From contig JCKJ01000001.1 in assembly GCA_000525025.1 (NCBI GenBank), positions 744,001-808,000 on the forward strand: a stretch of 64,000 nucleotides of DNA, in the 5' to 3' direction. The notes under the pieces were generated by a model, which saw only the letters and a list, made by a program, of their open reading frames with translations, was not told the origin of the DNA and made no database searches. Positions 33,543 through 42,388 of the stretch are shown one piece after another (the stretch's first letter is position 1; each line of letters begins with the position of its first letter). Source of the DNA: Methylophilaceae bacterium 11 (lineage in GTDB: Bacteria; Pseudomonadota; Gammaproteobacteria; Burkholderiales; Methylophilaceae). Made by a program: the position numbers and the translations under genes.

Positions 33543-33710
33543 ACATAAGAGCTAGCGATGCATGTTAAATCATGTGTAAATAAGATAGGGGAAGAGAAAA
33601 TGCTACAAACAGGTAAAATTGAGGAATTAACCCGATCAGGCTTCGTGGAAAGCCCCGCGAAGGCGTATACTACTGGCTACAAAAAAACCACAAACGGGAG
33701 CGACGCCGCT

Positions 33711-34340
33711 ATGGCGGAAAAGCCAGTGCAAAACCCAAGCGCTGAGAATCGAGAGTTAGACCAAGTGTTGGTCTTACGTGCACAGCAAGGCGATAAAAGA
33801 GCATTCGGCTTGTTGGTGGAAAAATACCATCGTAAATTAGGCCGGTTACTTTCACGCATGATTCGCGATCAAGCGGAAGTGGAAGACGTGGTGCAAGAGT
33901 CTTTTATTAAGGCCTACCGCGCTTTGCACAACTTTAGGGGTGATAGCGCGTTTTATACTTGGTTGTACCGTATTGGCATCAACACGGCTAAAAACTATTT
34001 GGTCTCCATGGGCCGCAAGCCGCAAGTGATGCAAGACGTTGAAATTGAAGATGTAGAAAATTTTGACGAAGGCATTGAAATGCGCACCATGGACACGCCG
34101 GAAACAGCGTTGATGACCAAAGAGATTGCGCAAACCGTGAATGATACGATTGCCAATTTGCCAGATGAGTTACGTACGGCGATTACTTTGCGCGAGCTGG
34201 AAGGGCTAAGTTACGAAGACATTGCCTCGATTATGCAATGCCCAATTGGTACTGTGCGCTCACGTATTTTTAGAGCACGCGAGACCATTGCATTAAAATT
34301 GCGTCCGTTGTTAGATACACCTGAGCATAAACGTTGGTAG
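33711..34340 (+). CDS. rpoE: RNA polymerase sigma factor RpoE (sigma-E, AlgU)
   Basis: This is the ECF sigma factor for envelope stress. From the ATG at 33711 the protein is 209 residues, normal for RpoE, with sigma-2 (HRKLGRLLSRMIRDQAEVED through FYTWLYRIGINT) and sigma-4 (LRELEGLSYEDIASIMQCPI) regions. The start has GGGAG at ten bases. The frame stays open upstream to ATGs at 33600 and 33558; the ATG at 33600 also has a good GGGGAAGAG site and would add 37 residues. It is followed by rseA, rseB, rseC and mucD. Confidence 0.93.
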   Translation: MAEKPVQNPSAENRELDQVLVLRAQQGDKRAFGLLVEKYHRKLGRLLSRMIRDQAEVEDVVQESFIKAYRALHNFRGDSAFYTWLYRIGINTAKNYLVSMGRKPQVMQDVEIEDVENFDEGIEMRTMDTPETALMTKEIAQTVNDTIANLPDELRTAITLRELEGLSYEDIASIMQCPIGTVRSRIFRARETIALKLRPLLDTPEHKRW

Positions 34341-34379
34341 TTTTGTTGAATATGATAAAGATAGAAGTACGGGGTTAGT

Positions 34380-34856
34380 ATGAAAGAACAGTTATCAGCC
34401 TTGATTGACGGCGAATTTGATACGCATAACGCGGATCATCTTTTGATTGTTGCAAAGTCCGATGGTGAGCTACGACGCGCGTGGAACGAGTACCATATGA
34501 TTGGAGATGTGATGCGCGGGGATGTTGTGTTGCATCGTAACGTGGCCGGCCGAATTCTGGAAGCATTGGATGAAGAGCCTACTGTGATTGCGCCAGCCAT
34601 GGTGAAGGCATCGCGTACGGATACCAAGCAACCATTTTTTAAGAAGACTGCATTTTGGTCAGTCGCTGCTTCGGTCACGGCGGTGATGTTTGTCGGGCTC
34701 ATGTTGTTGCAACAACAAAAGGCGGAACAGACACTGGTCAATCCAATTGAAATTGCAGAAAGTATGCCCAGTGAATACTTAGCTGCGCACCAAACGTATG
34801 CACCTAACAGTGCCGCGTACTATATTCAAAGCGCCTCATATACGGAGCAACGTTAA
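34380..34856 (+). CDS. rseA: Anti-sigma factor RseA
   Basis: The 158-residue protein has an N-terminal cytoplasmic RseA domain (MKEQLSALIDGEFD, DVMRGDVVLHRNVAGRI), one transmembrane helix at about 91-110, and a periplasmic tail. RseA holds RpoE until it is cut by site proteases under envelope stress. It is 39 bases downstream of rpoE and 2 bases upstream of rseB, matching the usual order. Confidence 0.92.
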   Translation: MKEQLSALIDGEFDTHNADHLLIVAKSDGELRRAWNEYHMIGDVMRGDVVLHRNVAGRILEALDEEPTVIAPAMVKASRTDTKQPFFKKTAFWSVAASVTAVMFVGLMLLQQQKAEQTLVNPIEIAESMPSEYLAAHQTYAPNSAAYYIQSASYTEQR

Positions 34857-34858
34857 TA

Positions 34859-35830
34859 ATGCTTAGATGGATGTTGGCTTGCGGCTTGTGCTGCGCGAGC
34901 CTTAATATTCAGGCCTCCGAAGACCCTTGGTTAGCGTTACAGAAAACCGCATTTGCAGCGCGCGAACTTAACTATCAAGGCGTATTTGTCTATCAAAACG
35001 GTAATCAAATACGCTCAGTACAAATCACCCACATGAACAATGCCGGACGCGAACTGACCCGTAATGTGGTGCTGGATGGTCAGCCACGTGAAGTATTTAG
35101 TGAAGGCAGTGATATTGTTATTTTTAATGCAAAAAATAACAAAGTGGTGATTGAAAAGCGCCGCGGTCAAAATTTATTTCCAGCCATGTTGCCCACTAAT
35201 CTAGATGTGATTAAATCTAGCTATATCGCAAAACTTGGCGCTGTAGAACGGATTGCGGGGCGCGATGCACAAATCATTGATTTGGTGCCCAATGATAACT
35301 TTCGCTATTCGTATCGAATATGGTCTGATGCCGAATTTGGTTTGCTGTTGAAAATGACGCTGCTGGATAATCAGAACCGTGCGATTGAGCAGATAGGCTT
35401 TACGCAGCTGAGCATGCTCAATACGCATGAATTAGATTGGTTTCAACCCAAAATCGACTTATCCAAACAGTATGTAATGGAAGACGAGACCACGGTTAAC
35501 CATGTCTCCAATAATTGGGTAGTGGCGAATTTACCGCCCGGATATCGTAAGATCGATCATATTGAGCATATTGTGCCCGGCAAGTCAGGTATTGTGAATC
35601 AAGTCATTTTTTCAGATGGTATTGCCTCGGTTTCTGTCTTTATCGAACCCCTTAAAAAGGGCATGCGTGCCAAAACAGGTCACAAAGTAGTGGGGTCGAC
35701 CAATATTTGTGCGCATGTGATAGATGGCTATCAAGTGATTGTGGTGGGCGAAGTGCCAGCACAAACCGTGCAGCAAATTGCAAAAGCCATCAGCTTTAAC
35801 AAGCAACCTACCACCACTGCCAATAAATAA
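34859..35830 (+). CDS. rseB: Sigma-E regulatory protein RseB (MucB)
   Basis: The 323-residue periplasmic protein has a signal peptide (MLRWMLACGLCCASLNIQA). A lipid-binding LolA/LppX-like N-terminal domain (YQGVFVYQNGNQIRSVQITH) and a smaller C-terminal domain follow. RseB shields RseA from the first protease and senses lipopolysaccharide intermediates. It begins two bases after rseA. Confidence 0.94.
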   Translation: MLRWMLACGLCCASLNIQASEDPWLALQKTAFAARELNYQGVFVYQNGNQIRSVQITHMNNAGRELTRNVVLDGQPREVFSEGSDIVIFNAKNNKVVIEKRRGQNLFPAMLPTNLDVIKSSYIAKLGAVERIAGRDAQIIDLVPNDNFRYSYRIWSDAEFGLLLKMTLLDNQNRAIEQIGFTQLSMLNTHELDWFQPKIDLSKQYVMEDETTVNHVSNNWVVANLPPGYRKIDHIEHIVPGKSGIVNQVIFSDGIASVSVFIEPLKKGMRAKTGHKVVGSTNICAHVIDGYQVIVVGEVPAQTVQQIAKAISFNKQPTTTANK

Positions 35831-35847
35831 TTGTTGTTGAGTACATC

Positions 35848-36339
35848 ATGATAGAAGAACGCGCTGTCATTCTCTCGCTAGAGTCTAACTCCTCTCCCGC
35901 TGATACATCCTCGATTGCTACTTTAGAAATTGAGCGTAAAACTGCTTGCGGATTATGTGGTCAAACCCGCGGCTGTGGTAATGCCATATGGGGAAAATTG
36001 TTTGCACATCGCTCAACAGCATTTAAAGCGAATAACAGCATTCATGCATCAGTAGGGCAAAGCGTTATCGTTGGCATCAATGAACGCGCGCTGTTATGGG
36101 GTGCTTTGCTTTTATATATATTGCCACTTGTGACCATGCTGATTGCCTCCATATTGATCATGCAATGGACTGATTCAAATGGCATCACCATGCTAGCAGC
36201 CTTGATTGGGGTAGTACTAGGACTGTTGTGGGTGAAAGGGTTTACGGCAACACATCAGTATTTTGTGTTGCAACAGCCTGTCATTCTAAGATTGGCAGAT
36301 GATGACAGGCCAATTACATTTGCCAATCAACTTAATTAA
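35848..36339 (+). CDS. rseC: RseC/SoxR-reducing system family protein
   Basis: The 163-residue inner-membrane protein has an N-terminal cysteine cluster (Cys34, Cys37, Cys43 in CGLCGQTRGCG) and two transmembrane helices (LLWGALLLYILPLVTMLIAS and ITMLAALIGVVLGLLWVKGF). This is the RseC/MucC layout, with redox-active cysteines near the membrane. RseC works in the sigma-E operon and in keeping SoxR reduced. The spacing to rseB and mucD (17 and 24 bases) supports one operon. Confidence 0.9.
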   Translation: MIEERAVILSLESNSSPADTSSIATLEIERKTACGLCGQTRGCGNAIWGKLFAHRSTAFKANNSIHASVGQSVIVGINERALLWGALLLYILPLVTMLIASILIMQWTDSNGITMLAALIGVVLGLLWVKGFTATHQYFVLQQPVILRLADDDRPITFANQLN

Positions 36340-36363
36340 CCTTGAGGATAGAAGGAAATTTAG

Positions 36364-37785
36364 ATGTTAAAACAATGGATTTCTAGCACGTTGTTAACGA
36401 TTGCAATTGCAGTCAATGCGTTGCCCGTTTATGCAAAAGATTTACCAGACTTTACCGAACTGGCTGAGAAGCAAGGCCCTGCAGTGGTCAATATTAGCAT
36501 CACCTCAGTTGCGCATACCAATGGTATCGCGCCTTTTCCAGGTATGCCGGATGATGAAAATATTCAGGAGTTCTTCAAGCGTTTTGGTATCCCAGGCATG
36601 CCGCCAGGCCAAGGACAAGCGCCGGGTGGACAAGAATTTAAAACTCAATCGTTGGGTTCAGGTTTTATTATTAGCCAGGATGGCTATATTTTAACGAACG
36701 CACATGTGGTGAGCGAAGCGGACGAGGTGTTGGTCAAGCTGTCAGACAAGCGTGAGTTCAAAGCCAAAATCATTGGTGCGGATAAGCGCACTGATGTGGC
36801 ATTGATTAAAATCGAGGCGACCAATTTGCCTAAAGTGACTGTGGGTGACCCCAACGCACTGAAAGTCGGTGAATGGGTGGCGGCGATTGGCTCACCTTTT
36901 GGTTTGGAAAACACCATGACGGCTGGGATTGTCAGTGCAAAAGGGCGCGCATTGCCACAAGAAAACTTTGTGCCGTTTATTCAAACCGATGTGGCGATTA
37001 ATCCAGGTAACTCTGGCGGCCCATTGTTTAATTTGCGTGGCGAAGTAGTGGGTATCAACTCACAGATTTATAGCCGCAGTGGTGGGTCTATGGGTTTGTC
37101 ATTCAGTATCCCGATTGACGTGGCGATTGATATTTCCAACCAATTAAAAGCCAGTGGCAAAATCACACGTGGCTGGCTGGGGATTGCTATTCAAGAGCTC
37201 ACCAAGGAGTTGGCTGAATCCTTTGGCATGAAAAATACCAATGGTGCTTTGGTAGCGGGTGTGGAGAAGGGTGGGCCTGCGGACAAAAGTGGTTTAGAAG
37301 CTGGAGATGTCATCACTAAGTTTGATAGCAAACCGATTGTGACCTCTAGTGACTTACCTCGCGTAGTGGGTAGCACAAAACCGGGTAAATCTGTGCCGGT
37401 AGAAGTGGTGCGTAAGGGCGCGGCTAAAACTCTGAATGTCAGTGTGGGCGAAATGCCGATCGATCCTGCCGAGGCGAGTGCGCCCAGTAAAGCAGCGCCA
37501 AAAGCAGAGGCCAATAAAATCGGCTTGACGTTGAAAGAGCTCACGCCACAGCAAAAGAAAAAGCTCAATGGCAAAAATGGTTTGCTAGTCATTGAAAGTG
37601 CTGGGATTGCAGCGCAGGCAGGCATTCGTCGTGGTGACGTCGTGCTAGGCCTAAACAACAGTGAAAGCCAAAGCGTTGATTTGTTTAATAAACAGATTAA
37701 TGCTGTACCAGCAGGCAAGACGGTTGCTATTCTGGTATTGCGTGGCGAGAGCACGCTTTATGTGCCGATTAAGGTGACGAAGTAA
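36364..37785 (+). CDS. mucD: Do-family periplasmic serine protease (MucD/DegP-like)
   Basis: The 473-residue protein has a signal peptide (cleaved near PVYA), the trypsin-like catalytic triad His114 (TNAHVV), Asp144 (DVALIK) and Ser217 (GNSGGP), and two PDZ domains (about 270-360 and 385-470). It degrades or refolds damaged periplasmic proteins and is a member of the sigma-E regulon. It is the last gene of the operon, ending ahead of a strong terminator. Confidence 0.96.
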   Translation: MLKQWISSTLLTIAIAVNALPVYAKDLPDFTELAEKQGPAVVNISITSVAHTNGIAPFPGMPDDENIQEFFKRFGIPGMPPGQGQAPGGQEFKTQSLGSGFIISQDGYILTNAHVVSEADEVLVKLSDKREFKAKIIGADKRTDVALIKIEATNLPKVTVGDPNALKVGEWVAAIGSPFGLENTMTAGIVSAKGRALPQENFVPFIQTDVAINPGNSGGPLFNLRGEVVGINSQIYSRSGGSMGLSFSIPIDVAIDISNQLKASGKITRGWLGIAIQELTKELAESFGMKNTNGALVAGVEKGGPADKSGLEAGDVITKFDSKPIVTSSDLPRVVGSTKPGKSVPVEVVRKGAAKTLNVSVGEMPIDPAEASAPSKAAPKAEANKIGLTLKELTPQQKKKLNGKNGLLVIESAGIAAQAGIRRGDVVLGLNNSESQSVDLFNKQINAVPAGKTVAILVLRGESTLYVPIKVTK

Positions 37786-37828
37786 CACAACAAATAGCTG
37801 GCGATTCAGTCGGCTATTGCTGTTATGC

Positions 37829-37859
37829 AAAACCCGCATTGCATCTGCATGCGGGTTTT
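37829..37859 (+). terminator. Rho-independent terminator of the rpoE-mucD operon
   Basis: AAAACCCGCAT and ATGCGGGTTTT make an 11-bp arm around a 9-base loop, followed by T-rich sequence. It lies 44 bases past the mucD stop and 18 bases before the stop of the convergent AsmA-like gene, so it may serve both. Confidence 0.9.
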
Positions 37860-37876
37860 TTCTTTTCTCAAGATTG

Positions 37877-40153
37877 TTATTTCGTTTGCGGGTGATCTGC
37901 CGTGCCAGTGAGCACGAGAGTGGATTTAATTTGACGTGAGGCTGTACTTAAGTTGACACGAATACTACCTTTGAGCTGTTGGCTTTCTGTCACGGTTAAT
38001 GCGCCTGAAGCTTTCATGTTTCCGGATTTAAGCGCAAGTTGATCAACTGTCAATTGTCGATTTTTTGTAAAAAGCCGACCACTCAGCGAATCGAATCGGG
38101 TAGTACCATTAATCGCGGCATTCTTTTTAGCTACTTGGATTGCGCGCATGATGTCTATCCAGCCAATCTCGCCTTGTGAAATATTGAACTGACCCTGTAG
38201 ATTCGGTTGGTCGAAGAGATGTTCAATGTCCACAGCATTCGCAGAGATATCAATGTCCGCATCTACATTGCCTTTGGCGCTCACCGTGCTAAAGGCAGGC
38301 ATTAAGCTGTCCAAATCCGCATTGTGTACATTAATTTTGCCAGAGGTCTGCCAACCGTTTAACCAATCTAATGTAAGTGCCCCTGTCAGGGTGCCGTTGT
38401 AGGCAAAGCCTTGAATTGTGCTGAAATGAATGGCGTCATGATTGGCAGTGCCCTCTGCTTTCAGATTGCTAATAACGATCGGTGCACCCATTGGTAATGT
38501 CAGTTTTTTTGCTTGCATCGTAATCGCGTAATCATTCGCCTGTGCAGTCAGTACAATCTGTGTGCGTTGCTCATCAAGCATTATTTCCGCATGGCTCAGT
38601 TGACCACTAGGATTGAATTGCAAGCTAGCATCAAAACTGGGTAGCTTGGATTGCGCCAACTGAATCGTGATATCACGTAGCTCAAACTGTTGTGTTTGCC
38701 ATTGCATTTTCGATTGTCCATGCATCAGCCATTGTGCGCTGCGCTTGGCTTGCGCTGGTGTGATTAGCATACCTTTCAACTCAATTTTCTCAATGGGACG
38801 CGCGTCTGTCGTCAGCATTGCCCAAGTAGGAAAAATCTTGGCTGATTGTACTTGGACATCCGATACGTTGCCGACATCTATATGTTCGAGTACTAAGTGT
38901 GGGCTAGGCAATAGCGCAGTGTGCATTTGATGAATCTTGACACGCTCGCCAATATGATTGCTTGCCAGTTGCTCTACGTTGCTCAGCCAAGGGCTCACCA
39001 CAATCGGCAGATAAGTGAGTAGCGCCAACACAAGCACTAAGCCCGCGATAGTTAAGCCTGCAGGTACCAGCCATTGTGTGACAAATGTGACCGTATAATG
39101 TAGGCCAAAACTAAATGCTTTGAGTAAAGAGAAGTTAAATGAAGGGAGTTTGAATTTAGGCACCTTAGGTGCCGGGTTTGCACTCGCAATTGTATCGAAA
39201 GCGTCCGCAGATACATGTCTATAATCATCATAGGCTCCTGGCGCAAATGTATCGCCAAATGCTTCTTCATCTATGTCAATATGCTGCTTTACTTTTAGCG
39301 GTGTTGGCTCGGGTGGTGTTGACTTAGATGATGCCGCCTTTTTTTGCTGATGTTTTTGTAAAACGGCTTCTATTTCTGCCTTGGCCTGCGCTTCTGCCTC
39401 TGCTCTAGCTTTCGCCTCAGCTTCTGCCTTTGCCTGCGCTTCCGCTTCCGCTTCTGCCTTGGCTTTCGCCTCAGCTTCTGCTTTGGCCTGTGCTCTGGCT
39501 TTCACCTCAGCTTCTGCCTTGGCCTGTGCTCTGGCTTTCACCTCAGCTTCTGCCTTGGCTTTCGCCTCAGCTTCTGCTTTGGCTTTCGCCTCAGCTTCTG
39601 CTTTGGCCTGTGCTCTGGCTTTCACCTCAGCTTCTGCCTTGGCTTTCGCCTCAGCTTCTGCTTTGGCCTGCGCTTCTGCTTCTAGTCTTAATTTAGTCTC
39701 AATGGCTGCTTGTACTTGAGCAATGTTTTCGGCTTCTTCATCAAGCTCTGCTTGCGCACGTGCTTTGCCATCTTGTTTTTGATTGGATTTGTGCAAGGTA
39801 GCCACAGGTGTTGGGCTAGCGGATCTTGTAATCGCACTGCCAAAACTGGTGTCGAAAAATTGCTTGGTTTGCAGTTCCTCCACTACCATGGGGTTTATGG
39901 TATTGGAGGCAAAAAAGGCAGTCTCGTCAAAATCGCTTTTTGCAATGATGAAGCCATCATTGATGAGCTGGATTAGGATTTGGGTGTATTGATATTCTGT
40001 GAGTTTGCCTATGGCTTGCATCACAGACTTGGCATCGAGTTTACTATCGGTTTTGGTGAGTACCTGGATGTGGCTAGGCGGTAGCACTTTGTTTTTTAAA
40101 GACAAAGCCCTTGCGCCCTTGCTGGTTCTGCAGTAAACCGTTGATAAATTCAT
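37877..40153 (-). CDS. AsmA-like membrane protein with N-terminal domain and Ala/Lys/Glu repeat
   Basis: The 758-residue protein has four parts. Residues 1-80 look like a winged-helix-type helical domain ([34 protein letters not shown]). Residues about 158-262 are a charged repeat (units KAEAEAKA and [12 protein letters not shown]). A transmembrane helix lies at about 361-385. The C-terminal part resembles the AsmA/YhjG family ([31 protein letters not shown]), a beta-rich domain that may move lipids. The parts are each recognisable but the combination is not one I know. It lies between mucD and lepA, disrupting the usual betaproteobacterial order. Confidence 0.8.
39368..39682 (-). repeat. Intragenic tandem repeat encoding an Ala/Lys/Glu coiled coil
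   Basis: About 315 bases within the AsmA-like gene are built from near-identical modules encoding KAEAEAKA (24 bases) and [12 protein letters not shown] (36 bases). The latter occurs three times. Such high similarity at the DNA level allows slippage and recombination. The same region stays open in other frames, which makes artefact reading frames on both strands. Confidence 0.85.
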
Positions 40154-40167
40154 GCGAGTCCTTGCTC

Positions 40168-40187
40168 CGTTAAATCGTCATTTAACG
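40168..40187 (-). promoter_or_regulatory. Inverted repeat upstream of the AsmA-like gene
   Basis: CGTTAAAT-N4-ATTTAACG is a perfect 8-base palindrome, 15 bases before the start codon and next to the AAGGA ribosome-binding site. It could be a repressor operator or a leader hairpin affecting translation. Confidence 0.45.
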
Positions 40188-40548
40188 CACCAATTGATAT
40201 CACTTAAGCTTACCTCTGTTGGCTGCAAACAGGGTAACGCACTTGATATTTTGCGCGAAGATTCAGCGTTTACTAAATCATCTATAACGCTTTTTTAGTT
40301 TACTACAGATGATTTACTAGAGGTAGTGAATCCACCGGCTGGCATGGAATATTGTAGGTAGCGTCTAGTTTTGTTGTGTATTCGTCTCTTTTGCATAGTA
40401 TTCAATATAAGTACTCACGTTTTTTGTGTGTTTTGAACAGTACCATCAACTGACTTTATTGCATGCATAACGATAGATAAACAGTGGCTACGATGCAATT
40501 AATTACAACCTAATCAAGCCTTTGTAGTAAAATCACGCCAACTTAAAA

Positions 40549-40567
40549 AAGGCGCATTATGCGCCTT
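40549..40567 (-). terminator. Hairpin with minus-strand terminator geometry upstream of lepA
   Basis: AAGGCGCAT-T-ATGCGCCTT is a perfect palindrome. On the minus strand it is followed directly by a T-run, so it fits a Rho-independent terminator for antisense RNA. On the plus strand it lies in the lepA leader, followed after four bases by a T-run (TGTTTTTAAA), which could also attenuate. Confidence 0.5.
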
Positions 40568-40594
40568 ACCTGTTTTTAAACGCTAAAGTAAACA

Positions 40595-42388
40595 ATGAAA
40601 AATATCCGTAACTTCTCCATTATTGCTCACATTGACCACGGTAAATCTACACTGGCTGATCGTATTATTCAATTGTGCGGTGGGCTGGCCGACCGCGAAA
40701 TGGAAGCGCAAGTGCTAGATAGTATGGATATTGAGCGTGAGCGCGGTATTACCATCAAGGCGCAAACAGCGGCATTGCAATATAAGGCCGATGATGGGCA
40801 AGTATACAACCTGAATTTAATTGATACGCCTGGCCACGTGGATTTTAGTTACGAAGTATCACGCTCACTTTCTGCATGTGAAGGCGCACTGTTGGTAGTG
40901 GACGCCAGCCAAGGGGTTGAAGCGCAAAGTGTAGCCAATTGCTATACCGCTTTAGATTTGGGTGTTGAAGTAACGGCTGTGCTGAACAAAATTGATTTGC
41001 CTTCTGCAGATCCAGACCGCGTGATTCAAGAGATTGAAGATGTGATTGGTGTAGACGCAACCGATGCAGTGCGTTGTTCTGCCAAAACCGGCGAAGGCGT
41101 GCGCGATGTATTAGAGGCTGTGATTGCCAAAGTGCCAGCGCCTAAAGGGGATGTTAATGCACCTTTAAAAGCGCTGGTGATTGATGCATGGTTTGATAAC
41201 TATGTAGGTGTTGTAATGCTGGTACGCGTGATGGATGGTGTGTTAAAACCAAAAGATAAAATCCGCTTAATGGCCACGCACTCAGAGCATTTATGCGAAC
41301 AAGTTGGTGTATTTACCCCTAAATCAGTACAAAAAACGGCACTCTCTGCGGGTGAGGTAGGTTTTGTGATTGCTGGGATCAAAGAGTTGGCCAATGCCAA
41401 AGTAGGCGATACGGTGACCTTGGCTGGCAAACCCGCTTCAGAAGCATTGGCCGGATTTAAAGAAGTGAAGCCGCAGGTGTTTGCAGGCTTGTACCCGGTA
41501 GAGTCTAACCAGTTTGAAGCCTTACGTACCGCGCTTGAGAAGTTAAGCTTAAACGATGCGTCATTATTGTTTGAACCAGAAAACTCCACGGCATTAGGCT
41601 TTGGCTTTAGGTGCGGCTTCTTAGGTTTGTTGCACATGGAAATCGTGCAAGAGCGTTTAGAACGTGAGTACGATATGGATTTGATTACCACTGCACCCAC
41701 AGTGGTTTATGAATTGCTGCTTAAAGATGGCAGCGTGGTACAGATTGAAAATCCATCACGCCTGCCAGAGCCTTCGCGTGTAGAAGAAACGCGTGAGCCT
41801 GTCATTAATGTGAATTTATTGATGCCACAAGACTATGTTGGTCCGGTGATGACGCTTTGTAACAATAAGCGCGGTCTTCAAAAAAATATGCAGTACATGG
41901 GGCGTCAAGTGATGCTCAGTTATGAAATGCCATTAAACGAAGTGGTGCTAGATTTTTTTGATAAATTAAAATCGGTATCGCGTGGCTACGCTTCAATGGA
42001 CTATGAATTTTTAGAGTTTCGCGCCGCAGATTTGGTGAAGTTAGATATTATGGTCAATGGTGAGCGTGTGGATGCGCTCAGTATGATTGTGCACCGTGCC
42101 AACAGTGTGCATCGTGGCCGTGAGGTCGCGGCAAAAATGCGCGAGTTGATTCCACGTCAAATGTTCGATGTGGCTATTCAGGCCTCTATTGGTGCCAATA
42201 TTATTGCGCGTGAGACGGTCAAAGCCATGCGTAAAAACGTGATTGCCAAATGTTATGGCGGTGATGTATCGCGTAAACGTAAATTGTTGGACAAGCAAAA
42301 AGAAGGTAAAAAACGCATGAAACAGGTGGGCAATGTGGAAATTCCACAAGAAGCTTTCCTGGCGATTTTGCGCGTAGAAGATAAGTAA
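40595..42388 (+). CDS. lepA: Elongation factor 4 (LepA)
   Basis: LepA is a ribosome-binding GTPase that back-translocates or assists initiation. The 597-residue protein has the G domain ([38 protein letters not shown]), EF-G-like domains and the LepA-specific C-terminus ([22 protein letters not shown]). The length matches Escherichia coli (599). It starts the operon lepA-lepB-DUF4845-rnc-era. Confidence 0.98.

Follow-up and report, generated by a model that had tools for sequence, protein, structure and literature searches.

The stretch of DNA considered here (the window) comprises 64,000 nucleotides of Methylophilaceae bacterium 11 and carries on its minus strand a gene for an AsmA-like protein with a predicted cytoplasmic head (Table 1). 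The gene lies within a run at 33558-42388 that reads rpoE-rseA-rseB-rseC-mucD, then lepA, and then a lepB-like signal peptidase gene, with all names assigned by reading of the ORFs. The corresponding gene order of Escherichia coli is rpoE-rseABC-lepA-lepB, and the window's run resembles it, with the AsmA-like gene lying between mucD and lepA. Because it converges on mucD and diverges from lepA, the AsmA-like gene is probably transcribed alone. A preliminary description of this DNA had recognized four parts in a single 758-residue chain between these two genes, and all four are indeed present, with their borders adjusted: a winged-helix-like head, a long charged helix, a membrane helix, and a periplasmic beta-groove.

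Table 1. The AsmA-like gene of the window, its encoded parts, and its flanking genes (positions are those of the window)
Feature	Position	Strand	Basis
mucD	36364-37785	+	name by reading of ORF
AsmA-like gene with cytoplasmic head	37877..40153	minus	ATG start, 758 aa; ORF and translation
Periplasmic beta-groove, residues about 405-758	37880..38941	minus	AlphaFold2, PF05170 in 12/17 family members, strand alternation
Helix after membrane helix, residues 387-401, groove start	38951..38995	minus	AlphaFold2; Vps13, Atg2 and LPD-3 alignments begin nearby
Membrane helix, residues 356-381	39011..39088	minus	AlphaFold2 model residues 5-30 (model starts at 352); hydropathy and charge asymmetry in homologues
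Charged helix, residues 138-268	39350..39742	minus	131 aa without Pro or Gly; Ala 40%, E/D 23%, K/R 19%
DNA tandem repeats, periods 24, 36, 84 and 120 bp among others	39374..39683	minus	Tandem Repeats Finder; encode most of charged helix
Winged-helix-like head, residues 1-74	39932..40153	minus	AlphaFold2 (moderate), structural matches, MarR_2 profile match, two alignments
lepA	40595-42388	+	name by reading of ORF

The flanks of the gene hold several potential signals. An inverted repeat at about 40270-40320, with arms near AAATCATCT and AGATGATTT, was found by eye between the AsmA-like gene and lepA and is a possible operator. Directly before lepA, at 40549-40567, a short GC stem is followed by T-rich sequence and is terminator-like on the minus strand. 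On the other side, a stem-loop with a T run at about 37831-37868, also recognized by eye and with a loop that exceeds the scanner's limit, is perhaps a terminator shared by mucD and the AsmA-like gene. A search for a sigma-E promoter before the AsmA-like gene found none, the one loose match being oriented towards lepA.

The placement next to mucD and lepA, which the preliminary description had included in its account of the protein, does not appear to be a feature of the family. Among 21 loci tested (L042-L058, L101, L151, L201, and L202, with L101 being L046 in place), lepA is near the AsmA-like gene in four, L042-L045, all from the window's genus, and mucD in only two, L042 and L044; the contigs of L043 and L045 stop within the AsmA-like gene. 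The mucD-lepA site was consequently rejected as a meaningful location. A conserved operon or partner gene was similarly rejected, with the commonest cluster of neighbours occurring in at most 15 of 61 complete loci and consisting of a protein that is GGDEF-like by eye and stands at varying distances from the AsmA-like gene. Clustering of the neighbours of 16 loci with other head-bearing proteins returned small clusters only, one of them comprising three linked genes at three related loci. Moreover, a PHROGs search with four proteins gave no match.

The C-terminal part of the protein was modelled with AlphaFold2 on 51 sequences (alignment A5, comprising 50 of the 57 complete groove rows plus the window). 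The model consists of the membrane helix, another helix, and 20 long strands, with a mean pLDDT of 89.7 and a pTM of 0.82. It matches bridge-like lipid transfer proteins, including LPD-3 (Z 8.0, model residues 32-354), Vps13 (Z 7.0, residues 35-298), and Atg2 (Z 6.7, residues 40-177), in a list headed and mostly filled by outer-membrane barrels or other beta proteins at Z 6 to 8.5. Foldseek gave no match to this part at E 0.001, and its top rows were barrels and unrelated beta proteins. Sequence supports an AsmA assignment more firmly than these structural matches. PF05170 (AsmA) was detected in 12 of 17 family members at E 0.1 or better, with a best value of 2.2e-18, and one of them, L219, passes the curated cut-off with 54.2 bits against 29.8. 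The window chain itself falls below threshold for PF05170, and its link to AsmA therefore runs through its relatives and a short, headless AsmA-like paralogue in the window's genome (G000:C1:1219090-1220256, a 454-codon frame), which the groove query finds at E 5e-33 and which passes PF05170. Finally, the alternation of strand hydropathy in the groove is 2.39 as compared to 1.62 in shuffled sequences, a value reached by 3 of 2000 shuffles, as expected of a groove with a greasy inner face. The earlier reading of the C-terminal part as AsmA-like is thereby upheld, and this part can be taken as shown or strongly predicted to comprise a membrane helix and, after it, a short AsmA-type beta-groove.

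In common with the broad AsmA-like superfamily, then, the protein has a membrane helix directly before a Chorein-like start and a beta-groove, together with PF05170 homology by way of its relatives. It differs in that head and coil, about 355 residues in all, stand before the membrane helix, and in a groove of only about 350 residues. The preliminary description had stated that AsmA-like proteins carry one helix ahead of a periplasmic C-domain, and this agrees with a report on Pseudomonas aeruginosa, where AsmA-like proteins are described as sharing an N-terminal transmembrane helix (PMC10900882). The window protein was assigned to none of AsmA, YicH, YhjG, YhdP, YdbH, and TamB, since in these the membrane helix is at the N-terminus of the chain rather than at residues 356-381. 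Short AsmA-like paralogues of about 450 residues, found in related genomes as well as the window's own, have a homologous membrane helix and groove but neither head nor coil. The window's genome also encodes YhdP (a 1300-codon frame), TamB (1103), and two large AsmA-like frames (1011 and 1232), which suggests that the window protein is an additional member, perhaps a conditional one, and may have little or no lipid role of its own.

The orientation of the protein can be predicted from the charges around the membrane helix. According to the positive-inside rule, the positively charged flank of a membrane helix is on the cytoplasmic side. The 15 residues flanking the helix have a mean net charge of +4.43 before it and -0.02 after it, and the charge is greater before than after in 59 of 61 complete homologues. 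By this asymmetry, the head and coil are strongly predicted to be cytoplasmic and the groove periplasmic, in keeping with the preliminary description. The cytoplasmic part had been put at 300 residues, however, and it is actually about 355, as the membrane helix begins at residue 356.

The coil has the composition of a charged helix and the statistics of a solitary one. Frequent pairing of E/D with K/R four residues further on is the pattern of single charged helices. Such pairs (E/D at i, K/R at i+4) exceed the mean of 50 shuffles in all 61 complete homologues, with a median of 0.155 as compared to 0.062, in charged stretches that were picked by composition and range from 22 to 399 residues in length. 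Hydrophobic residues are sparse, at 8% in the window and a median of 9%. The coil therefore resembles a lone charged helix more than a classical coiled coil, and the long charged coil originally described is corrected in this respect, its length, charge, and position before the membrane helix being upheld. Domain II of TolA is likewise an Ala/Lys/Glu-rich helix, and TIGR02794 gives a low-complexity match to the coil only, at 30.2 bits against a cut-off of 59.45. The TolA helix follows its membrane anchor and is periplasmic, whereas the window coil comes before its membrane helix and, judged by charge, is in the cytoplasm. TolA or coiled-coil membership was rejected, as the matches reflect low complexity only. 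In searches of the whole window chain, nothing rose above a cut-off in Pfam or NCBIfam, and the NCBIfam matches below 0.01 were on the coil or spanned it. A 112-residue ORF on the plus strand at 39381-39719, antisense to the coil repeat, mirrors this low-complexity repeat and is unlikely to be a gene.

The length of the coil is free to change. Among the matches listed, the linker between head and groove in complete loci ranges from 43 to 1188 residues, and in Sulfuricella, two proteins whose heads are 91% and whose grooves are 88% alike have lengths of 1072 and 796 residues. L116 (539 residues), which is almost without a coil, adjoins L132 (1278 residues) on the groove tree (SH-aLRT 99), indicating that loss of the coil is possible. 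In L060, L209, and L219, too, the linker is shorter and not a coil.

The head was modelled on a 62-sequence alignment (A6: 61 of the 80 head rows plus the window, including row L165 with unknown residues), giving the secondary structure E6-9, H11-18, H26-35, H41-48, H53-66, and E69-72. Confidence is moderate, with block means of pLDDT between 69 and 85 over residues 1-70, values below 50 from residue 75 on, and an overall mean of 64.3, the other four models having means of 53.5-61.7. A KTxKG motif lies near the start of the head, at beta1-alpha1, and its T, K, and G are invariant and its first K nearly so, both in A6 and in the alignment of 15 head sequences from which the head profile was made (A1); the window version is RTSKG. 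Foldseek found no match to the model at E 0.001 or better. In a second structural search, the best matches were chains of GATOR1 complexes, which we take to be NPRL2/NPRL3 (Z 9.7, rmsd 3.3, 81 residues), and other matches included the winged helix of the RNA polymerase III 39 kDa subunit (Z 8.4), MccB (Z 7.4), and TruD (Z 6.5).

Comparison of profiles points in the same direction. Head residues 21-73 match MarR_2 winged helices at 94.8%. In the same comparison (hhalign, with 8 of 18 PqqD rows and 16 of 17 MarR_2 rows usable), the head matches the 8-sequence PqqD profile at 62%, and PqqD matches MarR_2 at 8.4%. PqqD and the RiPP recognition elements are winged-helix-like peptide binders, and the MccB and TruD matches show a likeness to them, as does a weak match of the head profile (E 9.3e-4) to a domain at L088 that is presumably PqqD-like, judging by its radical-SAM neighbour. 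They are nonetheless a less likely family for the head, with a match weaker than that of MarR_2. None of the solved chains reached E 0.001 against the head profile (best 0.0049), the 15 heads had no convincing match in Pfam (best HTH_47, E 0.0012), and no Pfam or NCBIfam model scored above its cut-off on the head among the proteins scanned. The head nevertheless shows the three-helix core and wing of a winged helix as well as the profile similarity, at the moderate confidence of its model, and the preliminary description's winged-helix-like N-terminus, for which residues 1-100 had been indicated, holds for residues 1-74. In comparison with MarR_2-type winged helices, the window head adds an N-terminal strand and a helix with the KTxKG motif, and its third helix is not basic. 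The plan of the model, the structural matches, the MarR_2 profile, and the poor Pfam matches together indicate that residues 1-74 most probably form a winged helix extended by an N-terminal strand and helix, one that fits none of the named families well among those searched and is thus an unnamed domain.

The architecture is common among relatives of the window organism. Single queries with the head and the groove found matches in 11 and 28 of 61 genomes, respectively. The head profile, at E 0.001 and with the window's genome included, had matches in 57 of the 187 family genomes, 143 of the 300 order genomes, 27 of the 274 from the class, and 15 of the 249 from the phylum, counts that take in partial, generic helix-turn-helix matches; 100 of the 143 order genomes matched at E 1e-9 or better, and the four matches outside the class covered profile columns 19-73 or less only. 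At least 72 order genomes carry the head in an open frame of at least 700 codons, and 63 of the 143 have two or more matches. A scan of named genomes with one short pattern gave at least 80 loci, nearly all of them from Betaproteobacteria or Burkholderiales by title among the matches listed; the groove proved too divergent to serve as a profile for these genomes. Head and groove are encoded in one ORF in 61 of these 80 listed loci, while 13 are truncated at contig ends and 6 are otherwise arranged (3 with masked bases, 1 with a frame break, 1 head-plus-receiver, and 1 head-plus-small-domain). Two loci with Bordetella parapertussis MAG titles, L171 within the 61 and L142 within the 6 others, were excluded from structures, tree, and distances.

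This recurrence of the same order of parts is more than chance would produce. The succession of head, coil, membrane helix, and groove is a conserved design common in Betaproteobacteria, as the order-wide head matches also attest, and is not an isolated fusion. The preliminary description would have been countered by an architecture both widespread and described, and this holds by half: widespread it is, but a full-text literature search, with a coverage that excluded most subscription papers and bioRxiv, returned no description of it among the matches listed. What is new is an AsmA-like variant with a cytoplasmic head and coil before the membrane helix, the AsmA-like kind of groove being already known. 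In the window's own genus its presence is patchy, with a full-length head match in 6 of 22 genomes, a partial match in 4, and none in 12.

The head has been passed on jointly with the groove and is under the stronger constraint. Across 64 proteins, head and groove distances correlate with an r of 0.848, a value reached by none of 999 permutations, and the head is more alike than the groove in 1947 of 2016 pairs. A rapidly built tree of 52 grooves, comprising 40 of 66 head-bearing rows (part chosen, part random) and 12 short forms, separates head-bearing from short forms with 2 label changes as compared to a shuffled mean of 10.9. Grouping of the short forms in a single clade is compatible with the data (p-AU 0.477), and the deep part of the tree is unsure owing to long branches. 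The rows came from 94 groove rows less 12 cut copies and L015, L151, L142, and L171; L039 was counted as head-bearing because a non-ATG start supplies its head (L060), and the window row dropped out as a duplicate of L012, itself left undrawn, and is represented by the congeners L013 and L014. Between the window and the congeners G016 and G001, dN is 0.018 and 0.022 for the head and 0.412 and 0.419 for the groove, with lepA at 0.014 and 0.047 and mucD at 0.062 and 0.054; only dN was used because dS exceeds 1 throughout. In both pairs the head is therefore about 20 times slower than the groove and close to lepA. A head that evolves as slowly as LepA while its groove drifts points to a conserved cytoplasmic partner that would bind it.

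The head also occurs on other proteins. It precedes receiver domains at L204 and L211 (by Pfam), at L161, L213, and L218 (which cluster with a receiver protein), and at L212 and L214 (by eye), and the head-plus-receiver gene of L204 lies about 2.6 kb from an AsmA-like gene. It also precedes small helical domains of about 80 residues that have no Pfam match above cut-off; L066, L073, L203, L216, and others are proteins of about 150-190 residues with a head and a small, helical-looking C-terminal domain. Head and coil without a groove make up L201 and L202 (416 and 394 residues), with the L201 gene located upstream of a gene for the full protein on the same strand with three ORFs between, and the head is alone or nearly so in L206 and L077-L079.

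With about an even chance of being correct, the preferred reading is that of an AsmA-like, lipid-handling protein of the inner membrane whose protein-binding head, mounted on a stiff spacer that varies in length, holds or controls it from inside the cell. At the outer face of that membrane, the groove would handle phospholipid or some other amphiphile, and with about 350 residues it probably does not reach across the periplasm by itself. The head, as a protein-binding winged helix rather than a reader of DNA, would dock on a conserved cytoplasmic partner, and the charged helix would serve as a stiff spacer without fixed length, such that lipid handling outside could be positioned or switched from inside. 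The reuse of the head before receiver and other domains, together with its non-basic third helix, was counted in favour of a binding module. Counted against this explanation were the lack of a conserved neighbour, the moderate head model with neither a Foldseek nor a solved-chain match at E 0.001, the overall positive charge of the head, the patchy presence, the other AsmA-like proteins of the window's genome, and the groove matches led by barrels of similar Z. A regulatory or scaffold role for the head and coil, as originally proposed, would be plausible.

It is also conceivable, though unlikely, that the protein is a membrane-tethered transcription factor of the ToxR or CadC kind, in which the head binds DNA near the membrane and the groove acts as a periplasmic sensor. 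The MarR_2 profile match would suit such a role, as would a whole-head net charge that is positive (+5 in the window, median +3) and a conserved basic start (residues 5-23, median +3); with this positive charge, the head may bind nucleic acid or anionic lipid. Set against this are a third helix with a median net charge of -1, which in the window has 14 residues and no basic one among them, the fusion of the same head to receiver and small helical domains, and linkers of more than 1000 residues in some members, for which a DNA reader would have no need.

Similarly improbable is a filament or condensate scaffold, whereby heads and coils would self-assemble in the manner of coiled-coil cytoskeletons and cluster the grooves, with the groove-less head-plus-coil proteins as partners. 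The existence of the latter, including the copy at L201 upstream of a full protein, fits this idea, and so does the polar enrichment of AsmA-like proteins in E. coli; according to a 2026 paper, YhdP, TamB, and YdbH are enriched at the cell poles, with the molecular basis left for future work (PMC12977461). The few hydrophobic residues of the coil and its i to i+4 salt-bridge pattern instead favour a lone helix, and members with a short or non-coil linker also count against a scaffold. That head and coil are a nearly functionless, neutral extension of an ordinary AsmA-like paralogue, its coil drifting by repeat slippage, would account for the tandem repeats that encode the coil, the great differences in length between close relatives, and the patchiness within the genus, but it is somewhat less likely still, with the low dN of the head and the retention of head and groove together across the order speaking against it.

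Beyond the membrane protein itself, a protein-binding head could be an uncatalogued winged-helix module that forms a betaproteobacterial network over response regulators, small helical proteins, head-plus-coil proteins, and AsmA-like proteins, in which receiver-head proteins could compete with the membrane protein for its docking site or join that site. This extension is quite improbable, but if it were true, two-component signalling would have a direct route to envelope lipid handling that bypasses transcription. The unnamed head domain is worth naming and testing, and whatever binds it should reveal a tie between lipid handling outside and the cell interior. A natural AsmA-like family with a conserved cytoplasmic head would thus offer a direct handle on the positioning and control of AsmA-like proteins.
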